Assembly (NCBI RefSeq): GCF_003597675.1 | Contig: NZ_CP030827.1 | Coordinates: 3,469,501-3,533,500, forward strand | Direction: 5' to 3' | Length of the DNA stretch: 64,000 nt | Source of the DNA: Neorhizobium sp. NCHU2750 | Lineage (GTDB): Bacteria; Pseudomonadota; Alphaproteobacteria; Rhizobiales; Rhizobiaceae | Part shown: in pieces, positions 42,499 to 53,440 of the stretch | Numbering within the stretch: position 1 is the stretch's first letter | Layout: the number at the start of each line of letters is the position of its first letter | The notes under the pieces: model-generated | The model's database searches: none | The model's input: the letters and a program-made list of their open reading frames with translations, nothing else | Told to the model about the DNA's origin: nothing | Program-made: the position numbers and the translations under genes

Positions 42499-42807
42499 CT
42501 AGACCTTGGCGCGTCGCATCAACTCGTCCAGCGCCTCGCCGTAAGACATGCCGGTATCGTTGCAGAAGGTCTTGAAGCGGTTGATCACGTCGATGGGCGC
42601 ACGCACGAAGGCCTGATCGAAGGGCTGTGACGGTTTGCGGACGCGCGCCACACGCTCAACCACTTCCCGGCTTTTGAACCCCGCCCGTTCTGCGGCCCTA
42701 TCGCCGAGATCGTCTCTGTCGTTGGCGTCCTGGGCGCCGTCTCGCGGCGAGAACTTCGATACGTCGAGACGCTTGTCGTCCTGGCCAAACCCGAAATCCC
42801 TTGCCAT
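42499..42807 (-). CDS. Small partition-associated protein
   Basis: A 102-residue product ([17 protein letters not shown]...) with an Arg-rich middle and a C-terminal helical segment (RAPIDVINRFKTFCNDTGMSYGEALDELMRR) resembling a ribbon-helix-helix or CopG-type DNA-binding domain. Its ATG overlaps the ParA-like stop by one base (TGATG), so the two are coupled. The arrangement suggests the DNA-binding partner of the ATPase. Confidence 0.75.
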   Translation of the reverse strand: MARDFGFGQDDKRLDVSKFSPRDGAQDANDRDDLGDRAAERAGFKSREVVERVARVRKPSQPFDQAFVRAPIDVINRFKTFCNDTGMSYGEALDELMRRAKV

Positions 42808-43490
42808 CAGGCCGCCCTTTCATCCTTCAGTGTCTGAAGCAGTTCCAGCACTTCGCCGGTCAACTGCATCGCGTTTTCGATCGCAGCCGGCACGCCGTTG
42901 ATTGCCGTCTGACTGAGTTCCTGCAGCGCAAGTCGCTCCATGAACATGGCGTTATAGGCTTCCCTTCGGTGCAGATGAGTACCAAGCACCGGCAGGCCGC
43001 TCTTGCGCATCTGCTGGCTGATTTCCCGCTCGATCCGGCGCACGAAGGGCGGCGGGCTGGTCCGGTTGAAGGACAGTGCGAAATTCAGCGGCCGACCGAC
43101 ATCCGCCTCGCTTTCCCGGACAAGGCTGACCGCACGTGCCGCCTGCTGCGCATCAAGGGCGCTTCCGGCAAGCGGGATCAAGGTCAGGTCACTGCGGATG
43201 ATCGCCCGTGATGTCAGGCGGCTGGCCGTACCTTCAAGGTCGATGAAGACGAACTGCGCCTGCGAAGCCGTTTCGTTGATCAGGTCACGAATATTGGCTT
43301 CCGTGGCGTCGCTGCGAACCTTGAGCGGCAGCGTGCTTTTGCCGGACCGCCAGTCCGTGATCGGCCTGTTCGGATCGGCGTCGATGATGATGACCGAGGC
43401 CCCCGACTGCACCAGGCATGTCGCGATCGTCAGCAATGTCGTCGACTTCCCGGCGCCCCCCTTCGGGTTGGCTGCGCAGATGACAGGCAT
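42807..43490 (-). CDS. ParA-like ATPase (VirC1-type)
   Basis: A 227-residue deviant Walker ATPase. The P-loop is PKGGAGKST, followed by the switch [12 protein letters not shown] and the [11 protein letters not shown] segment. This short, ParB-less form resembles plasmid and island partition ATPases of rhizobia (VirC1/ParA group). ATG 43490 follows GGAGAACGAT. It is coupled to a small putative DNA-binding partner and preceded by a palindrome-rich, AT-rich leader. No replication gene is near, so it probably belongs to an island remnant or has a chromosomal role. Confidence 0.88.
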
Positions 43491-43530
43491 ATCGTTCTCC
43501 AACCTGTGAAACTGGTTCCATCTAGCATAA

Positions 43531-43650
43531 ATGAAAGCATGCAGGCAATCCTGCATTCAAGCAAGCTACCATCATTGCATGATCGCATTCTTGCGATCTT
43601 GATATCAACAATGATTGCATGCATGACATCAAGAAATCACGCATGCAAAA
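43531..43650. repeat. GCATGC-type palindromes upstream of parA-like gene
   Basis: This 120-bp AT-rich stretch holds repeated GCATGC (43537, 43617, 43641), a GCATGA variant near 43577, GATCGCATTCTTGCGATC (an inverted repeat at 43581-43598) and the palindrome TTGATATCAA (43599-43608). Such clusters are typical of partition centromeres (parS/parC) or autoregulatory operators. Confidence 0.6.
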
Positions 43651-44345: not shown

Positions 44346-46268
44346 TCAGTCCAATAGCGCACGCACGCGCACCGCGAGTTCCCGCGCCGTATAGGGCTTC
44401 TTCAGCCAGCTGCCCGAAAGCGCCAGCTCGCGCCCCGCAATCGCCGGTTCGGCATAGCCGGAGGTGAACAGAACCGGGATATGCGGCCGCTCGGAACGTA
44501 CCCTGTTTGCCAGTTCGTCGCCTGTCAGACCACCGGGCATGACGACATCGGTAAACAGCAAGGCGATATCGTCATGGCGATCGAGCTGCGAAAGCGCCTC
44601 ATTTCCGTTTTCAGCCTCGATCACCTCGTAACCGAAACTCGTCAGCCTGGAGACCGTCACCCGTCGCACCCGCGGATCGTCCTCGACCACCAGGATCTTC
44701 TCGCGCCCGCCGGGCAGCGGGCTGGAGACCTGGGCGCCGCCGCCATCGGCATGGCTGATATCGATCTTCCGCCTGGCGGCCGGCAGAAACATCCTCACCG
44801 ACGTGCCCTGGCCGATCTCGCTATAGAGCTGGATATTGCCGCCCGATTGCTTGACGAAACCATAGACCATGCTGAGGCCGAGCCCCGTGCCGGCACTCAC
44901 ACCCTTGGTCGTGAAGAACGGTTCGAACGCCTTCTCCTTCACCTCCGGGCTCATGCCGCTGCCCGTATCGGTGACAGCGACGAGAACGAACTCACCGGTG
45001 CGCATGTTGGAATACATCTGCGCATAATCGACATCGAGCTTGATGTGAGAAATCTCGACGGTCAGCTTGCCGCCGCGCGGCATTGCATCGCGCGCATTGA
45101 TGACGAGATTGAGAATGGCATTCTGCAACTGCGAAGCATCGACCAGCGCCTCGTTGGGCGCGCCGGCGATCACTGTCTTGAACTCGATCGCCTCACCAAG
45201 GGTGCGCCGCATCAGGTCGGAAAAACTGGAAACGAGCTGCCCGACATCGACGAGCTGATTGTTGAGCGGCTGCCGTCGGCCGAAGGCGAGAAGCTGGCCG
45301 GTCAGCTTGGCACCATCATCGGCCGCCGCCTGCGCCTCCTGGAGCAAGACCTTGAGGTTCGGATCCTCAAGCCGGTATTCCATCATTTCCAGATTGCCGC
45401 TGATAACGGTGAGCAGGTTGTTGAAGTCATGCGCCAATCCCCCGGTCAGCTGACCGATGGCCTCCATTTTCTGGGATTGGCGCAACTCCTCCTCGATCTT
45501 GTGGCGGCTCGTCAGGTCGCGGATGAAACCGGTGAAGATCCGCTTTCCGCCGCTTCGCGCCTCGCCGACGGCAAGTTCCATCGGAAACGTCGTGCCATCC
45601 TTGCGCAGCCCGGTGACCACGCGGCCATAGCCGATGATCCGGCGCTCGCCGGTTTCCATATAGCGGGAAATATAGCCGTCATGCGCATTGCGGTCGGGAT
45701 TAGGCATCAGCATGCGGACATTCTTGCCGCAAACCTCGGCCTCGCTGTACCCGAACAGGCGCTCCGCCGCGACACTGAACGAGGTGATGATACCCGCCTC
45801 ATCAATGACGATGGTCGATTCCGGCACGGTATCGAGAATGGAGCGTAGATGCGCCTCCCGTTCCGCCAGATCGTTCTGTACCCGTTTCATCTCGGTCACG
45901 TCGTTGTTGGTCTGGATAATGATGGGCAAGCCATCAACCGAAAGGGCAACGGCAACCCAGCGTGTCGCGACAAAGACCTGATGGCCGTCGCGACTGCGAT
46001 GTTCTACTTCCCCTTCCCAGGAATGATGCTCCGCCACGCGCTGGCGTATCTCGTCCAGCGGAACGGGAAACCGCGTCTGCAGCAGCCGGTGGACCGACTG
46101 GCCAATCGCCTCCTGGCGTGACCAACCGTAAAGCCTCTCACAGCCGCTGCTCCAGCGAATGATCGTCCCCTCGCCGCTGTGAACGAGCACATTGGCGTCA
46201 TCCAGCAAGTGAAGGACGGAATCCAGCTCAGCCTGGGTCGTCAGCGTGCTTCTTATTTTCTCAGGCAT
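44346..46268 (-). CDS. fixL: Hybrid FixL-type oxygen-sensing histidine kinase
   Basis: A 640-residue soluble hybrid kinase. PAS1 spans about residues 13-130. PAS2 (about 140-255) is FixL-like: [20 protein letters not shown], then [20 protein letters not shown]. The haem-ligand His is H196 and the ligand-sensing Arg R216, 20 residues apart as in FixL. Then come HisKA with H280 (GGLAHDFNN), the HATPase (NARDAMP, GTGLGLS) and a C-terminal receiver with D574 ([10 protein letters not shown]). The fused receiver is the hFixL arrangement of Rhizobium etli. It starts at ATG 46268, 18 nt after fixK, so a fixK-fixL operon is likely. Confidence 0.9.
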
Positions 46269-46286
46269 CAAAATTCCTGGCTGCGG

Positions 46287-47030
46287 TTAGTGGTGGCGAC
46301 GTTCGTCAGCCGAAACCATCGGCTCCCCCCAGCCGTATTCATCGTTGTCTCCGGCCAATTGTGCAAGCGTCATCGGCTTGATGATCTTGACCGAATGGCG
46401 ACCGACGCAGCCAAGCACGCCCTTTGTCGTCAGCTTGGTAATGGTGCGCGAGACCGTCTCGATGGTCAGCCCCAGATAGTCTGCCATGTCCTGGCGGGTC
46501 ATCGGCAACTGCACCATCGACTGAACCCCGGTCTTGGCCGCTGCCCGGCGCAAGTGCTTCAGCAGAAATGTGCAGAGCCGTTCCTCCGCGCTCTTGCACG
46601 ACAGCAGCACCATCTGGTCCTGGGCAGCGGCCATTTCGTCGCATACACGTGCGAAGAGCTGCGGGCGTAGCTCCTCCGATTCCTGGACGGCGGCTTCGAA
46701 AGTGCGACGGGCTAGACGGCGGATCTTCGTTCCGACGATCGCTTCGGCGCTGTAGAGATAATTGCCCTTCAGCGAAACGCCGAGGAGATCGCCTTCGAAG
46801 ACGAAACCGGTAATCACCCGGCGACCGTCAGAAATGATGCGGAATATCCTGAGCGCGCCTTCGGCCACTTCAAACACGTGCTTCGCGTCATCGCCTTCTA
46901 GGAAAAGCGACTGGCCCGGCTGCAGGCATTCGACGGGCTGGCGCGAAAACAGGCCGCTCAACGTTTCCGGTTCGACCTGCGAAAGAAGGTTTGTGGTGCT
47001 GCGTTCGCGATTATAGCTGGTGAGAAACAT
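46287..47030 (-). CDS. fixK: FixK-type Crp/Fnr regulator
   Basis: A 247-residue Crp/Fnr-family activator: N-terminal cyclic-nucleotide-like beta-roll and C-terminal helix-turn-helix RQDMADYLGLTIETVSRTITKL with the E-x-x-S-R recognition residues (E191, S194, R195) that read TTGA half-sites. It lacks the N-terminal Cys cluster of Fnr/FnrN (cysteines only at 35, 130, 145, 153), so it is a FixK that depends on upstream signalling rather than its own Fe-S cluster. ATG 47030 is the likely start; the longer frame crosses the regulatory region. Divergent from fxkR, upstream of fixL. Confidence 0.88.
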   Translation of the reverse strand: MFLTSYNRERSTTNLLSQVEPETLSGLFSRQPVECLQPGQSLFLEGDDAKHVFEVAEGALRIFRIISDGRRVITGFVFEGDLLGVSLKGNYLYSAEAIVGTKIRRLARRTFEAAVQESEELRPQLFARVCDEMAAAQDQMVLLSCKSAEERLCTFLLKHLRRAAAKTGVQSMVQLPMTRQDMADYLGLTIETVSRTITKLTTKGVLGCVGRHSVKIIKPMTLAQLAGDNDEYGWGEPMVSADERRHH

Positions 47031-47116
47031 GTTCGGATCCCCGTCGTTTGATGGGGGTAGTTGACGTGATTGCAGTAACACGCGAATGCTACCGCCGTAA
47101 AAGACGGTTCGAATTG

Positions 47117-47133
47117 GTAACAGTTTGTAACAG
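47117..47133 (-). promoter_or_regulatory. K-box-like FxkR site upstream of fixK
   Basis: On the minus strand the sequence is TGTTACAAACTGTTACC: two GTTAC half-sites ten bases apart, giving GTTACA-AACT-GTTACC. This agrees with the GTTACA-N4-GTTACA K-box recalled for R. etli fixK promoters, which is bound by FxkR. It lies about 87-103 nt upstream of the fixK start and 17-33 nt upstream of the fxkR start. A third GTAACA (plus strand) is at 47075-47080. Confidence 0.7.
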
Positions 47134-47149
47134 CCTGGCTTGATTTTAG

Positions 47150-47881
47150 ATGTCCCTTGATCCCGCCCACGCGGCACATATCCTTGTCGTTGACGACGAC
47201 CCTCGTATTCGCCAGATGCTCGCCCGCTATTTCGAGGGTGAGGGATATCGCGTTACCACCGTTCCGGATGGCGTCGAGATGAACGTCGTTATGCGCCAGA
47301 ACAGCGTCGACGCAGTCTTGCTCGACCTTTCGCTTCCCGGCGGTCGCGACGGTCTCGATCTTGCGCGCGATATCCGTGCCACGTCCGACGTGCCGATTAT
47401 GATGCTGACCGGACGCGACGATGTGGTCGACCGGATTATCGGCATCGAGATCGGCGCCGACGATTATATCGCCAAGCCCTTTCATCTGAGAGAGGTTCAT
47501 GCCCGGCTGAAATCCATCCTCAGGCGCCGCCAGCCGGCGCCTGCGGCAAAGCCGGCCCAGGAGGAAGACAGGATCATTCGCTTCGAGGGATGGTCGCTCA
47601 ACCTGTCGCGACGCCAGCTGGTTGATCCGGACGGGGCGGAGGTGGAACTCACGACCGGCGAATTCGACATGCTCGCGGCCTTCCTCAACCATGCAGGCCG
47701 GGTACTGACACGCGACTTCCTGATGGACCTGACCCGTGGCCGCCACCTGGAAGCATTCGACCGCACCATAGATGCGCAGATCGTCAGGCTGAGGCGTAAG
47801 ATAGAGGCTGATGCCAAGCATCCTCAGTTCATCAAAGCGATCCGCGGCATCGGCTACATCTTCACCGGAAAGATCGGCTGA
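47150..47881 (+). CDS. fxkR: FxkR-like OmpR-family response regulator
   Basis: A 243-residue response regulator: receiver domain with phospho-acceptor D59 (LLDLSLPGG), conserved T87 (MLTGRD) and K109 (IAKPF), and a C-terminal winged helix of the OmpR/PhoB type (LTTGEFDMLAAFLNHAGRVLTR). It is divergent from fixK, and in R. etli FxkR links hFixL to fixK. The assignment rests on this context as well as on the family. Its 3' end overlaps the convergent GNAT-like gene by 28 nt. Confidence 0.82.
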   Translation: MSLDPAHAAHILVVDDDPRIRQMLARYFEGEGYRVTTVPDGVEMNVVMRQNSVDAVLLDLSLPGGRDGLDLARDIRATSDVPIMMLTGRDDVVDRIIGIEIGADDYIAKPFHLREVHARLKSILRRRQPAPAAKPAQEEDRIIRFEGWSLNLSRRQLVDPDGAEVELTTGEFDMLAAFLNHAGRVLTRDFLMDLTRGRHLEAFDRTIDAQIVRLRRKIEADAKHPQFIKAIRGIGYIFTGKIG

Positions 47882-48318
47882 TCCGGCAGGCTGTCGCTAT
47901 CGGCGGAGATGATCAGCCCATGGCCTCTCGGACCATGGTCGAGGTAATCGACAAGCACGGGCCAGGTCGTCGGCACCGCCGTCCAGATATGGATCTTCTG
48001 GCAACGCTCAGCCATGGCGAATGTCTTTACCGCGGAAAACAGCAACGCCCTGACTTCCTCGCAATCCTTCAGGCTCACGGCGGCGATCAGCGGCACTTCG
48101 ACTTGGCGTCGAAAATCACCCTCTCCTCTCACCGCGACATGGCAGATACCGCGTATATACCCCTCCCGGTCCTTGACCACGAACCAGCGGCGGCAATCTG
48201 CTGCACGGCGGGTCAGCGCAGTCCATTGGTCGAGGTCGAGGCCGGGCATGATGCGCTCGATCAGAGCATAGGCCCGTAAAACGTCTCGGGCATGCAAGGT
48301 GCCGATCCTGTAGCCCAT
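47854..48318 (-). CDS. GNAT-like protein, FixK-box promoter
   Basis: A 154-residue protein with features of the acyl-CoA N-acyltransferase fold (RIGTLHARDVLRAYALIERIMPGL at the start, RRWFVVKDREGYIRGICHVAV as the central strands), though the acetyl-CoA loop is not classic. GGAGGGGCA precedes ATG 48318. A TTGAC-N4-ATCAA box is centred 84 nt upstream, so expression is probably FixK-dependent under low oxygen. Convergent and overlapping with fxkR. Family assignment tentative. Confidence 0.7.
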   Translation of the reverse strand: MGYRIGTLHARDVLRAYALIERIMPGLDLDQWTALTRRAADCRRWFVVKDREGYIRGICHVAVRGEGDFRRQVEVPLIAAVSLKDCEEVRALLFSAVKTFAMAERCQKIHIWTAVPTTWPVLVDYLDHGPRGHGLIISADSDSLPDQPIFPVKM

Positions 48319-48395: not shown

Positions 48396-48409
48396 TTGAC
48401 TTCGATCAA
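48396..48409. promoter_or_regulatory. FixK/Fnr box upstream of the GNAT-like gene
   Basis: TTGAC-TTCG-ATCAA matches the TTGAY-N4-RTCAA FixK/Fnr consensus. If the box sits at -41.5, transcription would start near 48361, giving a 43-nt leader to ATG 48318. Confidence 0.72.
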
Positions 48410-50300: not shown

Positions 50301-50429
50301 CACCTCATTTCGCTCCGATCGACGGCCGGATCAAGCCGGCCGTCATCACATCTGCCGTATTTCTCGGAACTCTTGTAGAGGCCGGCTTTCGCGAGTAGAC
50401 CAGCGGCAACTGTAAGAGTGGAAGAGGTC

Positions 50430-51617
50430 ATGGCAGACATTCTAAGGCGCCGCATCAGCATCCTCGGATCGACCGGCTCGATCGGCGTCAATACGCTCGA
50501 CGTGGTCGCCCAACTCGGCGGACGCGATGCTTTCGACGTGGTCGCGATCACCGGCAACAGCAATGTCGACCTTCTGGCCGAGCAGGCGAAAATGTTTGGC
50601 GCGCGCCTCGCCGTCACCGCCGATGACAAGCAGTATGCGGTGCTGAAGGACGCCCTTTCCGGCACCGGCATCGAGGTCGCGGCCGGCCGCGCCGCACTGG
50701 TGGAGGCGGGAGAGCGGCAGTCCGATTGGGTCATGGCCGCAATCGTCGGCACCGCCGGCCTTGCGCCCACCCTTGCGGCAGCAAAACGCGGCGCCGATAT
50801 CGCGCTGGCCAACAAGGAATGCCTGGTCTCCGCCGGCGACCTGTTCGTCAAGGCGGTCGCCGATGGCGGCGGCAGGCTGATCCCCGTCGACAGCGAACAC
50901 AGCGCCATCTTCCAGTCGCTTGAGGACGACCAGCGCCACGCCGTCGAACGCATCGTCATCACCGCCTCGGGCGGCCCGTTCCGCACGTTCAGCCGCGAGC
51001 AGATGGCCGGCGTGACGGTCGATATCGCCCGCGCCCACCCGAACTGGTCGATGGGCCTGAAGATTTCAGTCGGCAGCGCCTCGATGTTCAACAAGGCGCT
51101 GGAAATGATTGAGGCAAAGCACCTCTTCAATGTCCGCCCGGACCAGATCGAGGTCGTCGTCCACCCGCAATCCGTCATCCATTCGATGGTCGGCTATACC
51201 GACGGCTCGGTTATCGCGCAGCTCGGCTGCCCCGACATGCGCACCGCCATCGGTTATGCACTCACCTATCCCGACCGGCCGAAGCTGAACGTCGATCGCC
51301 TCGATTTCGCTAAGCTGGCCCGCCTTGATTTCGAGGCTCCCGACGAGATCCGCTTCCCGGCACTGAGGCTCGCCCGCACCGCCATGGCACGCGGCGGCGT
51401 GCAGGCTGCGGTAATGAACGCCGCGGAAGAAACCGCCTTCAACGCCTTCTGCGACCGCCGCATCGGCTTCCTGCAGATGGCCGATATTGCCGAACAGGTG
51501 ATGGAAGACATGACCGGCTATGGCGTCGCGATCACCATGGACGACGTCTTCGCCGCCGATGGCGAGGCAAGGCGCCGCGCCGGGGACGTCATCGCCAGAA
51601 TGGAAATGGCGGCTTAG
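50430..51617 (+). CDS. dxr: 1-deoxy-D-xylulose-5-phosphate reductoisomerase
   Basis: A 395-residue enzyme (IspC) that converts DXP to 2-C-methylerythritol 4-phosphate, committing carbon to isoprenoids. NADPH-binding GSTGSIGVNTLD is at the N-terminus, the metal-binding VDSEHSA and the ANKECLV segment are present, and SGGPFRT follows as substrate loop. ATG 50430 with GGAAGAGG upstream was preferred to GTG 50418. A RIME-like repeat follows the stop. Confidence 0.96.
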   Translation: MADILRRRISILGSTGSIGVNTLDVVAQLGGRDAFDVVAITGNSNVDLLAEQAKMFGARLAVTADDKQYAVLKDALSGTGIEVAAGRAALVEAGERQSDWVMAAIVGTAGLAPTLAAAKRGADIALANKECLVSAGDLFVKAVADGGGRLIPVDSEHSAIFQSLEDDQRHAVERIVITASGGPFRTFSREQMAGVTVDIARAHPNWSMGLKISVGSASMFNKALEMIEAKHLFNVRPDQIEVVVHPQSVIHSMVGYTDGSVIAQLGCPDMRTAIGYALTYPDRPKLNVDRLDFAKLARLDFEAPDEIRFPALRLARTAMARGGVQAAVMNAAEETAFNAFCDRRIGFLQMADIAEQVMEDMTGYGVAITMDDVFAADGEARRRAGDVIARMEMAA

Positions 51618-51817: not shown

Positions 51818-53032
51818 TCAGGCCACATTTCGAGCCAGCGCGCAGCGCGACCACAACTGGTGCAGTGAAGCGACCAGATGCTCGATATCGGCATCGCTAT
51901 GCAGCGGCGTCGGGGTAATCCTGAGGCGCTCGGTCTTGCGCGGTACCGTCGGATAGTTGATCGGCTGCACATAGACATTACACGTATCGAGCAGGATGTC
52001 GGAGATCCACTTGCACTTCGATGCATCGCCGACCATGACCGGCACGATATGGCTCGGGTTCGGCATATGCGGAATGCCTTGGCTGTCGAGCAGGCCACGC
52101 AGCTTGCGCACGCGCTCCTGATGGCGGGCACGTTCGAACTGGCTGACCTTGAGATGCTGGATCGAGGCGACGGCACCGGCGGCAAGTGCCGGCGGAATGG
52201 CGGTCGTGAAGATGAAGCCCGAAGCGAACGAACGAATGAAATCGCAAAGCGCGGTAGACGCGGCGATATAACCGCCCATCACGCCGAATGCCTTGCCGAG
52301 CGTCCCTTCGATGATCGTCAGGCGATCCATCAGGCCTTCGCGCTCGGCAATGCCGCCGCCGCGCGGACCATACATGCCGACCGCATGAACTTCGTCGAGA
52401 TAGGTCATTGCGCCATACTTGTCGGCGAGATCGCAGATTTCCTTGATCGGCGCGATATCGCCATCCATCGAATATACGGATTCAAAGGCGATCAGCTTCG
52501 GCGCATTCGGATCGGCGGCCTTCAGCTTGGCTTCCAGATCGACGAGATCGTTATGCTTCCAGATCACCCGGTCGCACTTGCCGTAACGGATACCTTCGAT
52601 CATCGACGCATGGTTCAGCGCGTCGGAGAAGATGATGAGGCCGGGGATCTTCTGGCCGAGCGTGCCGAGCGTTGCCCAGTTCGAGATATAGCCGGAGGTA
52701 AAGACGAGCGCCTGCTCCTTGCCGTGAAGGTCTGCAAGCTCGCGCTCCAGAAGAACGTGGTAGTGGGTCGTGCCAGAAATATTCCGGGTGCCTCCCGCAC
52801 CCGCGCCACAGTGATCGATCGCCTCGTGCATTGCGGCCAGAACCGCCGGATGCTGGCCCATGCCCAGGTAGTCGTTGGAGCACCAGACGGTTACTTCCTT
52901 CTCACCTTCGGATGTGTGGTGGGTCGCCCGCGGAAAACTGCCACGATGCCTTTCGAGATCGGCGAACACGCGGTAGCGGCCTTCCTGATGAAGTCCGTCC
53001 AGCTCGCTCTTGAAAAATGCCTCGAAATCCAT
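51818..53032 (-). CDS. hemA: 5-aminolevulinate synthase
   Basis: A 404-residue PLP enzyme condensing glycine and succinyl-CoA, the first step of haem, cobalamin and (bacterio)chlorophyll precursor synthesis in Alphaproteobacteria. [42 protein letters not shown] and [14 protein letters not shown] (PLP lysine) are present. ATG 53032 ([13 protein letters not shown]) is the family start. A perfect FixK/Fnr box is 171-184 nt upstream, so haem synthesis is tied to low oxygen. Confidence 0.97.
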
Positions 53033-53440
53033 GCTAAACTCCAAAACCCTTGAAGGGTCTTCTTGATCTTTGCCAGCTTCTTCGTCTGCCTGCGGCAACG
53101 CGTCGTCAAGCCCGAAGAGGCGGTATGGGCGTAGCTGCGGCAATAGGCCCATCTTTTGAATTATTCCAATCTAAATCTTAGCGATAGCCAAAATGTGAAG
53201 ATTGACCCATGTCAACCGGCGAACAAAAGCTCTCGCCTGTGCCATCGCGCAACACATGGGCCGCTTGGTGCAGCCGGCAGCATTTCGCGCGATTAGTGCA
53301 CAACACCAAATTCCCGAATGCTGAAATAAAAATAACGCCGGCTATATGGACTCTCTGGCCTCACCGCCTATTGTTGGCTCAGAAGTGAGCAAAAGACGGC
53401 AACTGTACGTCACAACAGAGAAAACTTACCGGAGGGTGCC
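53033..53440. other. Regulatory intergenic between hemA and a lipoprotein gene
   Basis: About 400 bp between divergent genes. It holds the FixK box of hemA (53203-53216) on one side and the promoter region of the small lipoprotein, ending in GGAGGGTGCC, on the other. No credible ORF was seen. Confidence 0.6.
53203..53216. promoter_or_regulatory. FixK/Fnr box upstream of hemA
   Basis: TTGAC-CCAT-GTCAA is a perfect inverted repeat that matches the FixK/Fnr consensus. Position -41.5 would put the start site near 53168 and give hemA a leader of about 136 nt. Confidence 0.78.

Follow-up and report, generated by a model that had tools for sequence, protein, structure and literature searches.

A probable hFixL-FxkR-FixK low-oxygen switch on the chromosome of Neorhizobium sp. 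NCHU2750 and its candidate fourth gene

The system examined here consists of the genes for hFixL, FxkR and FixK in a 64,000-nucleotide (nt) stretch of Neorhizobium sp. NCHU2750 DNA, hereafter the window (C1:3469501-3533500, within a 4.32-Mb contig). The closest described systems are those of Rhizobium leguminosarum biovar viciae 3841 (Rlv3841). According to the available part of PMC7888657, the chromosome of this strain carries a cluster, fxkRc-fixKc-hfixLc (RL1881-RL1879), reported there to have no K-box; the consensus of this FxkR operator is GTTACA-N4-GTTACA (same source and PMC4999443, likewise in part). Unlike the window, plasmid pRL9 of Rlv3841 has two clusters, fixK9b-fxkR9 and fixK9a-hfixL9, one of them beside fixNOQP. 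The hFixL pathway has already been shown to be active outside nodules, in free-living Rlv3841 at 1% O2. An earlier note on the NCHU2750 DNA had presented the cascade as known mainly from plasmid-borne loci; the Rlv3841 chromosomal cluster makes that description outdated and rules out the chromosomal setting as a novelty (PMC7888657, in part).

As listed below, the window holds all three genes where the earlier note had placed them (44346-47881), with domains identified by Pfam. The K-box, the fourth gene and the FixK/FnrN-type boxes at 48396 and 53202 go beyond that note.

44346..46268, minus strand: hFixL hybrid oxygen-sensor kinase, 640 amino acids (aa), ATG at 46268; PAS-PAS-HisKA-HATPase_c-receiver by Pfam and Protein Data Bank (PDB) matches
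45516..45851, minus strand: haem PAS of hFixL, residues 140-251, with codons for H196 (45681-45683) and R216 (45621-45623); Pfam, PDB matches and alignment
46287..47030, minus strand: FixK, Crp/Fnr regulator without Fe-S cysteines, 247 aa; Pfam and translation
47116..47131, minus strand: predicted FxkR operator (K-box) GTTACA-AACT-GTTACC, 86 bp upstream of the fixK ATG, between fxkR and fixK
47150..47881, plus strand: FxkR, OmpR-type response regulator, 243 aa, divergent from fixK; Pfam Response_reg and Trans_reg_C
47854..48318, minus strand: gene 4, 154-aa GNAT-like protein, tail-to-tail with fxkR and sharing 28 nt with its 3' end
48396..48409: FixK/FnrN-type box TTGAC-TTCG-ATCAA, preceding the gene 4 ATG by about 78 bp

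The module noted earlier is real; its kind and its setting are both known already. We consider it probable that it is the low-oxygen switch of the strain, of the hFixL-FxkR-FixK type, with gene 4 as a conserved fourth member and output. Its domains, haem residues, K-box, FixK/FnrN-type boxes and conserved gene order can be read directly from the sequence. The hFixL protein combines a haem PAS containing the His and Arg residues, a kinase core and a C-terminal receiver, and is 62.4% identical to hFixL9 of pRL9. Its second PAS aligns with the haem PAS of solved FixL structures (E 1e-39 to 5e-49); the haem His and sensing Arg, H196 and R216, stand 20 residues apart as the earlier note had it, and are invariant in 85 of 85 aligned hFixL rows (rows L105, L223 and L258 repeat others). 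Residue 202 of the same alignment, which we take to correspond to R206 of Bradyrhizobium japonicum FixL, is Arg in 33 of the 85 rows and otherwise His, Asn, Ser, Asp or Glu; given this variation, oxygen affinity may differ among the aligned proteins.

FixK has the Crp/Fnr domains and its translation shows no N-terminal cysteine cluster, which bears out the absence of Fe-S cysteines noticed earlier; in contrast, the separate FnrN of the same genome carries the cluster CRGCEARHAGVC. The gap of 18 nt between the last fixK base (46287) and the hFixL ATG (46268) is likewise correct, as is the divergent arrangement of the OmpR-type regulator, with fxkR on the plus strand opposite fixK on the minus strand and 119 nt between the two start codons. 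FxkR is close to its described namesakes, being 76.5% identical to FxkR of Rhizobium etli CFN42 p42f and 77.1% identical to FxkR9 of pRL9.

The predicted operator upstream of fixK departs from the K-box consensus at one position, and its 16 bases are identical to those of the fixK9b K-box on pRL9. With one mismatch allowed, the 6.35-Mb genome contains the motif at 3 positions. Since reversed control patterns gave 7 and 5, the motif is rare without being enriched, and it is its placement that matters. Upstream of fixK in 63 hFixL-linked loci, the best K-box is perfect in 19 cases, has one mismatch in 37 and two in 6 (62/63 in total); none with up to 2 mismatches was found in L149, whose contig starts nearby. 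Shuffled sequence yielded a K-box with at most one mismatch in 0.08 of 63 loci. All 57 intergenic regions between divergent fxkR and fixK genes contain the motif, with 0, 1 or 2 mismatches in 14, 35 and 8 (49 within one mismatch).

Among the 63 loci scanned, L104, L105 and L135 repeat L028, L029 and L030. The repeats L111, L134, L140, L142, L154, L155 and L158 were left out of the scan, as were L129, L152 and L164, which offer no fixK to scan. The 57 divergent loci come from stretches chosen from search matches and include several close kin.

A K-box can also be placed in the Rlv3841 chromosomal cluster. Genome G235 was read as Rlv3841, its hFixL at C4:20661-22577 having the pRL9 coordinates of NC_008379.1; the second hFixL copy is at C1:1974480-1976360. 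The fxkRc-fixKc intergenic region of this genome contains the one-mismatch sequence GTTACG-GATT-GTTACA at C1:1977174-1977189 (L163:9175-9190). Relative to the published transcription start sites (fixKc 1977111, fxkRc 1977167; PMC7888657, in part), its near edge falls at -63 for fixKc and +7 for fxkRc; the corresponding values of the fixK9b/fxkR9 box, counted here at that paper's -62 position, are -62 and +6. This K-box, if functional, would change the reading that the chromosomal cluster escapes FxkR control.

The Rlv3841 chromosomal cluster resembles the window in having the same three genes in divergent order on a chromosome, gene 4 (L163) and a one-mismatch K-box. Unlike the window, however, it belongs to another lineage in both the hFixL and FxkR trees, and its 16-kb stretch has no match to hemA or dxr. 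The window proteins group with those of Rhizobium wenxiniae, Rhizobium smilacinae and Aliirhizobium terrae (the hFixL tree was built by a quick method, and both trees are rooted at midpoint only). In the FxkR tree, the window FxkR falls on the R. etli/pRL9 side, apart from the FxkRc lineage. Of the 20 close named loci compared (L021-L040), eight (L021-L027 and L038) keep the order hemA-dxr-monooxygenase-(small gene)-gene 4-fxkR/fixK-hfixL; in L035 and L036 it is hemA-dxr-monooxygenase-fxkR-hfixL, without gene 4. Judged by trees and gene order, the module is of a lineage other than the Rlv3841 chromosomal one and sits in a hemA-dxr slot common to close relatives. Orthology to the Rlv3841 cluster was considered and rejected, on the trees and on the lack of a shared hemA-dxr slot in the fetched stretch. 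More widely, 20 of 199 family genomes contain an hFixL-like match with an E-value no worse than 1e-120, and so do 52 of the 80 genomes searched in one related genus.

A rival account makes the NCHU2750 cluster redundant or minor, comparable to hFixLc of Rlv3841, and leaves most of the oxygen control to FnrN. There is a precedent: in the available part of PMC7888657, an hfixLc mutation alone leaves fnrN expression unreduced and lowers only fixNOQP9 (to 71%), the plasmid copy being dominant, and the NCHU2750 genome does have an FnrN with a box nearby. Still, we hold this account to be quite unlikely, since the next best hFixL matches in the genome are at most 49% identical. When the 19 best matches besides hFixL itself (L002-L020) were compared with the haem PAS, a single one, L004, reached E 1e-3 or better (27%), and its alignment has no His at the haem position. 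FixK is single in the FixK search of the genome, and the position of the window FxkR outside the FxkRc lineage also argues against a minor copy.

The NCHU2750 module would probably work as follows. Loss of O2 from a haem bound in PAS2 would lead hFixL to autophosphorylate and, by phosphotransfer, to activate FxkR; FxkR would bind the predicted K-box and turn on the fixK-hfixL pair. Because hfixL is part of that pair, the sensor would amplify itself. FixK, and later FnrN, would then control promoters by binding TTGAY-N4-RTCAA boxes at the cbb3 oxidase, fixG, fnrN/hemN-like, hemA and gene 4 loci, gene 4 thereby being an output of the module. A limiting effect on fxkR may come from this K-box too, in line with the proposal made for fxkR9 (PMC7888657, in part).

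Searches of the whole genome returned no nifH near the cut-off (three weak matches, the best at 27.6 bits against 394; a control search was above the cut-off in 3 of 14 genomes) and one ccoN. The FixK search gave three matches, namely FixK, the FnrN with the cysteine cluster and a more distant Crp-like protein. A search for NodA found no match in the genome; its control also matched nowhere, hence this is no proof of absence. A general low-oxygen role, suggested in the earlier note from the closeness of hemA and dxr, is plausible because there is no nifH above the cut-off and one each of ccoN, FnrN and FixK; the mere proximity of hemA and dxr is no proof of it.

The FixK/FnrN-type box TTGAYNNNNRTCAA is found at 44 genome sites, compared to 3 for the reversed control. 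Two of these are in the window; the other 42 were examined on fetched stretches. Convincing candidate targets are ccoN, fixG, hemA, gene 4 and the stretch between a Radical-SAM gene and FnrN, the latter taken from a later start. Upstream of hemA, the window and all 10 syntenic loci compared, some of which are closely related, have a box (L258 is the L021 locus again and is uncounted), and hemA has already been published as an FnrN/FixK target (PMC4999443, in part). The corresponding features are:

50418..51617: dxr, named by reading the sequence
51818..53032, minus strand: hemA, 5-aminolevulinate synthase, candidate FixK/FnrN target, named by reading the sequence
53202..53215: FixK/FnrN-type box TTGAC-CCAT-GTCAA, preceding hemA by about 170 bp

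On the other side of the module, between hFixL and an amidohydrolase, a ParA/VirC1-like ATPase gene (Pfam) and a small gene occupy 42499-43556 of the window; they are perhaps a lineage insertion, as they have no match in the compared loci at E 1e-20.

Gene 4 recurs beside fxkR. It lies tail-to-tail with fxkR in 41 of the 57 divergent fxkR/fixK loci, or in 32 of 48 once the nine loci fetched for gene 4 itself (L201, L204-L206, L251-L253, L256 and L257) are set aside, and the placement spans Rhizobium, Neorhizobium, Agrobacterium, Sinorhizobium and Ensifer loci. Across 394 family genomes, 22 places with a homologue were found in 19 genomes: 17 beside fxkR (L188 and L199 beside part of it only), one beside fixK and four near neither. 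The repeats L105, L255 and L258, and L128 (fxkR alone), were left out of the gene 4 counts; the promoter count below is also without L129. The Aliirhizobium terrae copy (L027:7859-8297) looks broken, since its matches fall in two overlapping pieces. No copy was found in the 17.9-kb pRL9 stretch, unlike the window.

Of 57 gene 4 copies, 34 have a perfect TTGAY-N4-RTCAA box in the 220 bp ahead of the gene; eight have a box with one mismatch and 15 have none (L203 and L223, with one mismatch, are one plasmid counted twice). Shuffled sequence gave a perfect box in 0.025 of the 57 upstream regions. In a crude control set of open reading frames (ORFs) of at least 200 aa from the same loci, 185 of 1364 have a perfect box (Fisher p 5e-15 for gene 4 copies against control ORFs, ignoring relatedness), and box density over the 1.48 Mb of these loci is 0.037 per 222 bp. 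For some boxless copies the upstream gene seems, by eye, to end close by, so that the promoter may be further off. No K-box within 2 mismatches lies upstream of gene 4 in the 57 copies scanned. Judging by its promoter, gene 4 looks oxygen-controlled itself.

A number of observations weigh against the module being the strain's switch with gene 4 as fourth member and output. For many of the 44 boxes a promoter position is not evident, and of 20 downstream ORFs chosen for Pfam several belong to families unrelated to respiration (such as LysR, MFS, UbiD and DUF3422). The perfect box is absent upstream of 23 of 57 gene 4 copies, and when copies are grouped at 60% identity only 14 of 25 clusters have it. 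Control ORFs carry boxes in 13.6% of cases, which makes the islands box-rich. Gene 4 is itself missing from 16 of the 57 divergent loci, and four same-genus copies (L247-L250), 37-41% identical to the window protein, are unlinked to fxkR. Finally, the Rlv3841 chromosomal copy plays little role in free-living cells, as stated in the available part of PMC7888657.

What gene 4 encodes was approached through its fold. The window protein has no Pfam or NCBIfam match. A protein search returned 19 matches including itself (42 with a profile), and the named ones are 'hypothetical' or 'uncharacterized' save for a 110-aa entry labelled N-acetyltransferase domain. An AlphaFold2 (AF2) model from 35 sequences (predicted local distance difference test score, 83; predicted template modelling score, 0.81) runs strand, helices, three strands, helix, strand, helix, strand, which we take to be the element order of GNAT proteins. 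Gene 4 could thus be an ordinary acetyltransferase acting on a metabolite or a protein in hypoxia, to which the AF2 topology, a weak profile match to diamine acetyltransferase as the best among PDB sequences (E 0.006) and weak matches to Pfam Acetyltransf_1 in 2 of 22 members (best E 0.033) would point. Active GNAT acetyltransferases have the acetyl-CoA motif [RQ]xxGx[GA], however, and a search of residues 60-110 found it in none of the members of two alignments, one of 22 and one of 35 with members in common. An Asp is near its position in 16 of 22 and 32 of 35, and we consider catalysis of this sort unlikely. Cys106, on the other hand, is present in 22 of 22 and 34 of 35 members.

We give about an even chance to gene 4 being a mere neighbour, a hypoxia-stimulon gene carried in low-oxygen islands and having no action on the relay. 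The unlinked copies L247-L250 also have a perfect FixK/FnrN-type box; L248, the copy whose neighbours were viewed, has nearby an ORF reading by eye as acetate kinase. Plasmid modules (L127, L129, L131, L133, L201 and L203-L206) are often found among genes annotated as phosphoketolase, acetate kinase, AdhP, Usp, Hsp20 and BON, which suggests hypoxia islands. Against mere proximity stand the recurrence of the tail-to-tail placement with fxkR across five genera and the adjacency to fxkR at 17 of the 22 homologue places in the 394 family genomes.

By analogy with FixT, the feedback inhibitor of FixL in Sinorhizobium meliloti and Caulobacter and a small protein induced by the oxygen relay (PMC7078487, in part), a more tentative and, we feel, doubtful proposal is that gene 4 might be a degenerate GNAT-fold regulator, switched on by FixK/FnrN and acting back on hFixL or FxkR in the way that FixT acts in the FixL-FixJ relay; its nearly invariant Cys106 might then sense redox state. 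The likeness in induction is deduced from the gene 4 box alone, and the proteins differ, FixT being a single receiver domain whereas gene 4 has GNAT-like topology and lacks any Pfam match.

Within the open-access PMC literature, no publication pairing hFixL with an acetyltransferase was found; for FxkR together with GNAT a single review came up. Nor is there mention in it of RL1882, presumably the tag of gene 4 in Rlv3841. As far as these searches show, gene 4 is new as a companion of fxkR in the Rhizobiaceae. It is the new element here, the three-gene relay itself being already known, also on a chromosome, and the Rlv3841 chromosomal K-box is a correction to test. We think that gene 4 modulates the hypoxic response; should it act on the relay, the models of the pathway in print miss a component.

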